This document shows positions 8,678-10,447 of a stretch of 64,000 nt of DNA, one piece after another. A program made the position numbers and the translations under genes. The notes beneath the pieces were generated by a model. The model was not told the DNA's origin. It saw only the letters and a list, made by a program, of their open reading frames with translations, and searched no databases. This stretch comes from Microcaldota archaeon. Its GTDB lineage: Archaea > Micrarchaeota > Micrarchaeia > Norongarragalinales > UBA97. The DNA lies in assembly GCA_016194335.1 (NCBI GenBank), contig JACQBR010000017.1, positions 1-64,000 of the forward strand, given 5' to 3'. Numbering within the stretch: position 1 is the stretch's first letter; each line of letters begins with the position of its first letter.

Positions 8678-9157
8678 ATGAAAAAACCGCCCGTCTTTTT
8701 ATGCGACCTCATGCTGCGCAGGCTCGCCCGATGGCTGCGCATCCTCGGCATCGGCTGCGTCTACGCCGGGGACGAGGGCATTTCGGACGACGATGAAATC
8801 CTCAAATTCTGCCTCAAGCGCGGGTGCGTCCTTCTCACTCGGGACGAACTGCTTTACAGGAAGGCGGGCAGTTACGTCAAGACCGTGCTGATGGACAACG
8901 AAAGCCCCGAAAGGCAGGTGAAAGCCCTAACTGGAAAATTCGGCCTCAAGCTGGGCAGAAAATTTCTTGGACCCTCGCTTTGCCCGCAGTGCGGCGGGAG
9001 GCTGGAAAGGGTTGGAAAGCCAAGCGTGAAGGGCAAGGTATTCCCCAAGGTGTACGAGCTCAACCGCAGTTTCAACAAGTGCGCTGATTGCGGCAAAATC
9101 TACTGGAAAGGAAGCCATTTTCCCAAGCTGGAATCCTTCCACAAAAAAGTGGCGTGA
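8678..9157 (+). CDS. Mut7-C RNase domain protein (PIN-like fold with zinc ribbon)
   Basis: The 159-residue protein opens with FLCDLMLRRLARWLRILG, the hallmark of the Mut7-C (DUF82) family, a PIN-like nuclease domain with acidic residues at CDLM, DDDE and TRDELL. The C-terminal half has a four-cysteine zinc ribbon (CPQCGGRLE and CADCGKIYW). Biochemical role in archaea is unknown; RNase activity is predicted from the fold. ATG 8678 is preferred over an in-frame TTG at 8618 because the conserved domain begins right after it. Confidence 0.88.
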   Translation: MKKPPVFLCDLMLRRLARWLRILGIGCVYAGDEGISDDDEILKFCLKRGCVLLTRDELLYRKAGSYVKTVLMDNESPERQVKALTGKFGLKLGRKFLGPSLCPQCGGRLERVGKPSVKGKVFPKVYELNRSFNKCADCGKIYWKGSHFPKLESFHKKVA

Positions 9158-9209
9158 ATGGACATTGCGGCAGGATAGCTCGGTTTGAGAGATTGGGCCA
9201 AAAACCAGC

Positions 9210-9227
9210 CTATTGGATGACCAATAG
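9210..9227. promoter_or_regulatory. Perfect palindrome (operator) upstream of the small Cys protein
   Basis: CTATTGG, spacer ATGA, CCAATAG form a perfect 7+4+7 inverted repeat directly followed by a TATA-like TTTAAAATAT (9228-9237). A further CCAATAG half-site lies at 9262-9268, ten bases before the ATG at 9278. This looks like a repressor site covering the promoter; the regulator is not identified. Confidence 0.5.
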
Positions 9228-9277
9228 TTTAAAATATCCCCTCGACCTATATATTGTATACCCAATAGGCGAGGTTG

Positions 9278-9427
9278 ATGGAAATGGATGGATGCGTCGG
9301 ATACTGCGGAAGGCAGTACTTCAGCAAGAAGGAAAGAATCGAGTGGCTCAACGAGTACAAGAAGAACCTCGAGGACGAAGCCAAGGGCGTCGCCGAGAGG
9401 ATAAGGGAACTCGAAAAGGAGAAGTGA
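9278..9427 (+). CDS. Small 49-residue cysteine-containing helical protein
   Basis: An ATG at 9278 opens a 49-residue frame beginning MEMDGCVGYCGRQYFSKK, followed by an amphipathic, strongly charged helix (KERIEWLNEY...RIRELEKEK) and a TGA at 9425. The CxxxCGR N-terminus plus coiled-coil tail resembles small archaeal proteins of unknown role. It has its own promoter with a palindromic operator (9210-9227) and a hairpin/T-run terminator downstream, so it is a regulated single-gene unit. Function is not known; metal binding by the two cysteines is a guess. Confidence 0.7.
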   Translation: MEMDGCVGYCGRQYFSKKERIEWLNEYKKNLEDEAKGVAERIRELEKEK

Positions 9428-9464
9428 GCTTCCTGCCTTATTCTTTCTCCACATTCTGAAACTC

Positions 9465-9503
9465 GGAGGGGGGGGAAGCGAACCAACCTCCCTCTCATTT
9501 TTT
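9465..9503 (+). terminator. Hairpin followed by T-run
   Basis: GGAGG (9465-9469) can pair with CCTCC (9487-9491), and a run of six T lies at 9498-9503. It sits between the small protein ending at 9427 and the convergent EF-1beta gene. Confidence 0.4.
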
Positions 9504-9516
9504 CCCGATTACAAAA

Positions 9517-9762
9517 CTAGAGCAGCCCCACTTCGTCCACCTGCACTTCGCTCACGCCCTGCACGGCCTTCACTTCCTCCTCGAAGTCGCGGCCCGCGGC
9601 GTCCTCGCATATGAAACTCGCCTTGATTATCTTCGCGCCGAAAACGAAGTCCTCGATTTTCGCCGAGGTGCAGCCTTCAATCTTCCTCACCCTTTCCGAA
9701 AGGCCTTCGAGCTCTGCCCCCTCCTGCGGGAAGACCTTCATTACAGTCATTACTTTTCCCAT
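9517..9762 (-). CDS. Elongation factor 1-beta (archaeal nucleotide exchange factor)
   Basis: An 81-residue protein matching archaeal EF-1beta, the guanine nucleotide exchange factor for EF-1alpha. It has the ferredoxin-like beta-alpha-beta pattern: a VMTVMKVFP opening strand, the conserved FGAKIIKASFICED core and a C-terminal VSEVQVDEVG strand. ATG at 9762 is preferred to the TTG one codon earlier because GGAG precedes it by about 5 nt. It is 12 bp downstream of ribL and probably co-transcribed. Confidence 0.88.
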   Translation of the reverse strand: MGKVMTVMKVFPQEGAELEGLSERVRKIEGCTSAKIEDFVFGAKIIKASFICEDAAGRDFEEEVKAVQGVSEVQVDEVGLL

Positions 9763-10285: not shown

Positions 10286-10447
10286 CTAGGGCAGCGCAAA
10301 CCCGCAGGACTTGCAGGTGGAGGCAACTTCGTTCTCCCGGCACCTCTTGCAGCGCCTCGCCTTGCCGCCGCACGCCGAATTGGGGCAGGGGAAAGTCGTG
10401 ACGCCGCCGCTGCGGCCGCAGCTTCCGCAAATCGAATTCCTATCCAT
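10286..10447 (-). CDS. Small Zn-ribbon protein (COG2888-like, translation-associated)
   Basis: The reverse strand encodes 53 residues from ATG 10447 with four CxxC-type pairs: CGSCG, CPNSAC, CKRC and CKSCG. The FPCPN...RRCKRCR...CKSCGFALP arrangement matches the archaeal Zn-ribbon RNA-binding family (DUF1610/COG2888), predicted to act in translation. One knuckle is spaced CPNSAC instead of the usual CPNC, so one zinc site may be altered. It is followed 55 bp later by ribL. Confidence 0.75.
   Translation of the reverse strand: MDRNSICGSCGRSGGVTTFPCPNSACGGKARRCKRCRENEVASTCKSCGFALP

Follow-up and report, generated by a model that had tools for sequence, protein, structure and literature searches.

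A family of small cysteine-bearing archaeal proteins with conserved palindromic operators and a linked PadR-type regulator, a candidate electrophile-response system

The small gene and its product

The window, that is, the whole 64,000-nt stretch of contig JACQBR010000017.1 analysed here, contains a small ORF located between Mut7-C and EF-1 beta genes (Table 1). The surroundings of the site are archaeal, including Rad50 (assigned by reading the ORF by eye), Mut7-C, EF-1 beta, FAD-synthase-like nucleotidyltransferase and HerA genes, and ARAGORN found no tRNA between 9900 and 11200. The minus strand at 10286-10447 carries a 53-aa frame rich in CxxC pairs, which looks by eye like a zinc-ribbon small protein and has no Pfam match.

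Table 1. Features of the small gene and its promoter (window positions)
Feature	Position	Strand	Basis and remarks
Operator O1, perfect 7-4-7 palindrome CTATTGG-ATGA-CCAATAG	9210..9227	.	Exact; homolog promoters have a site of this type in the same position
TATA-like box TTTAAAATA, directly after O1	9228..9236	+	Sequence; homologs carry TATTTAAATA here; function inferred
Operator O2, degenerate copy ATATTGTATACCCAATAG, 2 mismatches	9251..9268	.	Expected to cover the transcription start
GAGG, likely ribosome-binding site	9271..9274	+	Sequence; gap statistics of homologs
Small protein gene	9284..9427	+	47 aa from ATG 9284 (49 aa if ATG 9278); Cys-Gly tail and one coiled-coil-like helix

An earlier note on this DNA described a 49-residue protein with the motif CVGYCGR followed by a charged helix. 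The frame is open as described, but its length had to be revised. Because the gap between the purine-rich site and the start codon was 5-8 nt in 61 of the 69 homologs measured and many homologs share the N-terminus MxG..C, ATG 9284, lying about 8-9 nt from the putative ribosome-binding site, is preferred over ATG 9278 (2-3 nt), and the product is probably 47 aa long. AlphaFold predicted a disordered tail and a single helix of 31 residues (17-47, pLDDT mostly >90), in which the spacing of I21, L24, L31, A35, V38, I42 and L45 would fit a coiled coil. As in the earlier note, no known family could be assigned: the Pfam, NCBIfam and PDB sequence searches gave none, and no Pfam or NCBIfam model reached its cut-off. 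A faint likeness to DUF5320 (PF17253) is confined to the C-terminal helix and stays below threshold (13.8 bits against a cut-off of 27, with only profile positions 67-99 of 99 aligned), so membership of this family is not supported.

The small gene is a member of an unnamed archaeal protein family. Strong homologs (E below 1e-8) occur in 79 of the 301 genomes of the window's phylum, and with E values up to 0.01 accepted, a profile of 19 homologs matched 112 of them. Scanning of species genomes gave 136 confirmed relatives. The best 80 were taken as the homolog loci analysed below, and their records are labelled Micrarchaeota, Aenigmatarchaeota, Woesearchaeota, Pacearchaeota, Diapherotrites, Marsarchaeota, Nitrososphaerales and Nitrosopumilaceae. 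One operator-bearing homolog (L113) lies on a short contig labelled Portnoybacteria (PFDW01000071.1), which may be a misbinned archaeal contig.

The consensus of the 19 homologs is MxxxCGxGxGxRxFLTKEEKIExLKEYKxxLExEAKGVxERIKELEKNN. R12, L24, Y27, L31 and several glutamates do not vary among the 19, and the first cysteine is close to invariant. Conservation extends neither to the second cysteine of CVGYCGR nor to the CxxxC spacing; one N-terminal cysteine is conserved, and CxxxCGR, the pattern put forward earlier for a search, is not the signature of the family. The number of N-terminal cysteines varies from 1 to 7 and is mostly 2 (44 of 80 automatic counts), the automatic start choice having missed the cysteine in three of the 80 (L070, L090 and L093), where it lies a few codons upstream. 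Selenocysteine or a recoded TGA was considered for two homologs and rejected, as one TGA stands just before the start and the other frame lacks the promoter and PadR start. Longer small proteins with a similar helix and tails rich in Cys, Met and His are encoded at L020:1324-1617 and at L022, L023 and L024; those of L022-L024 adjoin a different PadR-like gene, and the four may represent a sister system of more metal-like composition.

The paired operators of the promoter

The palindrome reported upstream of the gene is exact at 9210-9227. The extra half-site noticed close to the start is also present (9262-9268), but it does not stand alone, being the 3' arm of a second, degenerate operator, O2 (9251-9268). 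In the window, O1 and O2 are 41 bp apart with the TATA-like box between them, and the distance is 40-42 bp in 39 of the 58 homolog promoters that have two sites; the typical order in homologs is PadR gene, O1, TATTTAAATA, approximately 20 bp, O2 and the small gene. Archaeal promoter geometry places the transcription start where O2 lies. With O1 directly beside the TATA-like box and O2 expected over the start site, a repressor bound there would prevent assembly.

Taken by itself, a perfect 7-4-7 inverted repeat is no rarity, the window having five and 20 shuffles a mean of 6.15, although when the local 151 nt were shuffled only 13 of 2000 sequences contained one; its significance must therefore rest on conservation. 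Operator sites were found at 79 of the 80 homolog promoters (best 80 of 136 relatives), namely in 66 of the 67 loci with a divergent PadR gene and in all 13 others, and the promoter stretch has been lost from the lone operator-less locus (L138). Both the frame and the palindrome are thus kept in relatives, the test that the earlier note had set, and its proposal that the small gene is regulated through its own operator is strongly supported. Its terminator could not be confirmed: the three terminator-like matches in 9150-9520 all lie on the opposite strand, one of them being the palindrome itself, and none was found on the strand of the small gene in this interval.

A PadR-type regulator accompanies the small gene

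In 67 of the 80 loci, a gene of the same PadR subfamily is divergently oriented within 400 bp of the small gene; in four it lies farther upstream with an intervening gene, and in nine it was not found within the locus DNA examined, which in some cases is near a contig end. In the window's genome, the PadR gene, a 102-aa ORF, is on another contig (G000:C12:23843-24151, outside the window). When the genome was searched for the 18-base palindrome with at most one mismatch, only one other place was found, C12:23791-23808. A weaker copy with 3 mismatches follows 30 bp further on, and this pair of sites is positioned just before the PadR gene. On the same contig, a Rad51/RadA-type gene (L031:5802-7469, outside the window) is interrupted by an intein with a homing-endonuclease-like domain.

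The regulator matches the PadR family PF03551 with 52.5 bits against the Pfam cut-off of 27, and the Pfam scan gave no HxlR match at E up to 1, so it is not an HxlR/DUF24 protein. Its model (pLDDT 85.7) has the winged helix-turn-helix and the C-terminal dimerisation helix expected of the family, and the highest-scoring matches of the fold search were PadR structures, 5h20 (Z 14.6) and 5dym (Z 14.2, rmsd 1.7 over 89) as well as the archaeal RosR (6ez1, Z 13.8). An N-terminal cysteine, C9, a feature by which QsrR and YodB are recognised, is invariant in 34 of 34 aligned PadRs.

Among the 301 genomes scanned, the PadR subfamily is present in 76 of the 79 genomes with the small gene, while 28 of the 104 PadR genomes are without it; these counts are not phylogenetically independent. 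The recognition helix and the operator also vary together. Of 29 loci whose PadR has the helix KPK, 27 show TATA half-sites and 2 are mixed; all 37 loci with KPS show TAT[C/T] half-sites; and PNPGT PadRs, the kind of the window's genome, mostly face TATT half-sites (G000, G013, G014, G016, G020, G023 and G075). We rejected the view that this match reflects many independent events, because the K/S change occurred once on the PadR tree; it supports the pairing of helix and operator, but as one event. It is well supported by these comparisons that the small gene is regulated by this PadR, and the direction of regulation we infer. The gene would accordingly be part of a PadR regulon, and not the free-standing unit that it had seemed. 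In a Nitrosopumilus-labelled genome (L303, G336:C46) there is a second PadR-small gene pair whose small frame has an early stop, either a pseudogene or an assembly error.

Other proteins occupy the slot in PadR-only genomes

The PadR loci of all 28 PadR-only genomes were examined. In 16 of them, the slot opposite PadR encodes another Cys-rich small protein of one of two types: type B, with a longer helix-like part, in ten genomes (G014, G016, G020, G023, G066, G075, G079, G115, G147 and G243) and type C, with a CKECKVVC-type motif, in six (G048, G057, G073, G137, G145 and G166). Profiles of eight type B proteins, six type C proteins and the window family gave no mutual matches, and types B and C were consequently rejected as members of the window family. 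In three further genomes, the slot holds a flavin reductase (G001, of the window's own family), an MFS-like pump (G230) or a LUD protein (G197), all named by eye from the translations. The remaining nine (G077, G078, G150, G152, G220, G223, G228, G234 and G266) are at contig ends or have an ambiguous slot. What recurs across these loci is a small protein with cysteine, next to flavin and LUD enzymes.

Operator sites at other genes

Both strands were scanned with the pattern TATYGNNNNNCCRATA. In 14 genomes it matched 60 times and the reversed control 9 times; in 40 genomes the numbers were 274 and 78. Three genomes of the larger scan (G310, G314 and G324) look the same as three of the smaller one (G167, G124 and G122), having identical contig positions. 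The K-type pattern TATANNATGTCCTATA had 22 matches in 25 genomes against 1 for its control. Eighteen of the 22 are at contigs and positions of small-gene promoters, and the remaining four lie before genes for two FMN reductases, a zinc dehydrogenase and a LUD protein.

In the 14-genome scan, off-locus promoter sites precede LUD genes (three), a nitroreductase, an MMPL transporter and PadR genes; the reading covered the listed off-locus sites other than G110:C17, G013:C13 and G093:C3. A further candidate site, at G000:C14:7836, is at the start of a 170-aa gene without a Pfam match. Among the matches listed for the 40-genome scan, 55 off-locus sites were read, 46 inside coding frames and nine at promoters; the script had put 47 inside ORFs, one wrongly, this site being in the promoter that separates PadR from another small gene, itself followed by LUD. 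The targets of the nine are a LUD protein, a nitroreductase, a CDGSH protein, DoxX, a HAD hydrolase, an MFS transporter, the PadR/small/LUD promoter and two unassigned genes. The sites within coding frames (the 46, and others in G093, G028:C4, G167 and G124) were set aside as chance. Overall, the off-locus promoter sites lead to LUD, FMN_red, Nitroreductase, Flavin_Reduct, ADH_zinc, DoxX, CDGSH, HAD, MFS and MMPL genes, and no metal-transport gene was seen after a promoter-placed operator. Genome comparison thus reveals a shared regulon, and these detoxification genes support the stress half of the earlier suggestion of a stress or metal-response peptide.

The reverse test started from LUD, a gene present in 15 of the 40 genomes, once in each. 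Eight of the 15 have an operator close upstream, four are directly behind the small gene and three are neither, among them the LUD gene of the window's genome, where clear operators were found only at the small gene and PadR. At L079 and L104, the gene opposite PadR encodes a flavin reductase or a LUD protein, and the small gene comes next with its own operator pair. A looser pattern applied to six further genomes (four Nitrososphaerales/Nitrosopumilaceae and two Woesearchaeota loci) gave sites mostly inside coding frames in the 20 loci read, one of which was the second PadR-small gene pair of G336, and some carriers (Nitrososphaerales) have no clear wider regulon.

Discussion

We favour, with moderate confidence, the explanation that the regulon under the PadR repressor serves in defence against quinones, electrophiles or xenobiotics, with the small protein as a thiol-bearing helper. 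The winged-helix repressor would bind the paired palindromes, TATYGG-N4-CCRATA, flanking the TATA box and keep TBP/TFB and RNA polymerase from the promoter, so that its own gene and the small gene are both repressed. PadR would be inactivated by a thiol-reactive or aromatic chemical (a quinone, a nitroaromatic or another xenobiotic), the point of attack being perhaps the invariant cysteine near its N-terminus, in the CDMRG motif. Derepression would then raise, depending on the genome, the LUD-domain protein, flavin/FMN/quinone reductases, nitroreductase, DoxX, efflux pumps and the small protein. The latter, predicted to be a flexible Cys-Gly tail on one coiled-coil helix, would most likely act as a protein thiol, that is, a scavenger, a carrier or a partner of detoxification enzymes. 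This would be a reasonable idea, against which it counts that the single cysteine of some small proteins is little for a scavenger. Counting against the explanation as a whole are the window's genome, where the LUD gene has no operator, the single evolutionary change behind the match of helix and operator, the many off-locus matches within coding frames and the Nitrososphaerales carriers with no clear wider regulon.

Two other explanations accept the regulon and assign the small protein a different part. It could be a co-regulator or anti-repressor whose helix pairs with the C-terminal dimerisation helix of PadR while its Cys tail tunes the response, giving a two-part sensor. The near-constant divergent pairing (67/80), the co-occurrence (76/79), the single long helix of the small protein and the long C-terminal helix of PadR (residues 79-101) all agree with this; we nevertheless consider it unlikely, given that 28 of the 104 PadR genomes manage without the small protein, 16 of these having non-matching Cys proteins instead, that the window's genome is among those in which the two genes lie at distant places, and that no fusion of the two was seen. 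We are equally doubtful that PadR senses copper, zinc or another thiophilic metal and that the small protein is a metal-binding peptide, metallothionein-like or with a zinc site. Such a role would suit the Cys-Gly rich tails with up to seven cysteines and the Cys-rich replacement proteins, and the titles of two structures of Rv3488, a PadR-family protein, contain cadmium in one case and a word beginning with 'Man' in the other, yet the promoter-placed sites precede flavin, nitro and LUD enzymes and no metal exporters, and some members have a single cysteine. The only site near copper-type or heavy-metal-associated-domain-like genes (by eye; G124:C135:2873, L210, L228-type) is within a reading frame and was taken as chance.

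That the palindrome is a chance repeat or the terminator of the upstream gene, and the ORF an ordinary orphan, has in our judgement almost no probability. About six perfect 7-4-7 repeats are expected per such window and the palindrome does read as a terminator-like stem on the minus strand, but both versions are contradicted by the conserved sites at the same place in the homolog promoters and by the near-exact copy before the PadR gene of the window's genome.

The electrophile-response regulon that we prefer has bacterial parallels. DoxX proteins occur in quinone-electrophile regulons of the YodB/MhqR type. According to excerpts of one source, the YodB, CatR, QsrR and MhqR regulons control quinone reductases and nitroreductases, and quinones are sensed via N-terminal Cys6 (YodB), Cys7 (CatR) or Cys5 (QsrR) (PMC6798810). 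These MarR/DUF24 regulators and MhqR, of Bacillus subtilis and Staphylococcus aureus, resemble the PadR here as small winged-helix repressors with an N-terminal Cys and similar targets, quinone/FMN reductases and nitroreductases among them, as far as those excerpts describe them (PMC6798810). Unlike them, the present regulator is a PadR and archaeal, LUD and small Cys proteins are prominent among its putative targets, its cysteine sensing is only predicted, and no ring-cleavage dioxygenase was seen among the operator targets.

An archaeal parallel is RosR (VNG0258H) of Halobacterium salinarum, a PadR-type oxidative-stress regulator that binds a palindrome (PMC4287449, PMC9426492), controls >300 genes and, in the excerpted text, has no readily identifiable sensing residue (PMC9426492). 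It shares with our PadR the archaeal PadR-type fold (6ez1), a palindromic site and, on our reading, a stress regulon; its palindrome is different, and the excerpts of the two papers mention no small Cys partner (PMC4287449, PMC9426492). OxsR of Haloferax volcanii is a thiol-based regulator of the TrmB family that responds to hypochlorite as both activator and repressor (PMC9426492). Like our PadR, it is an archaeal single winged helix with one cysteine, functional in OxsR, and it differs in family, in its hypochlorite response and in that it also activates (PMC9426492). No published description of the PadR-small protein pair was found in our searches of an open-access library.

A broader reading, which we regard as speculative and rather unlikely, is that of an unnamed cross-phylum archaeal thiol-stress regulon, in which a PadR sensor with one invariant Cys would control interchangeable, non-homologous Cys microproteins acting as protein-borne thiol nucleophiles beside LUD/flavin enzymes, in organisms that may lack glutathione-type thiols. 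GshA-type hits are listed for some DPANN members in the excerpted part of a published source, so that the absence of these compounds should not be taken for granted.

Most DPANN archaea have not been cultured, and little of their regulatory circuitry is understood. An operator that can be read from sequence, together with a conserved regulator, would make a regulon predictable in these organisms. The PadR-operator pair is tractable at the bench, requiring one 100-residue repressor, one DNA site and a panel of inducers, and the regulon suggests a role for an unnamed family of small proteins as well as for the stand-alone LUD proteins of archaea.
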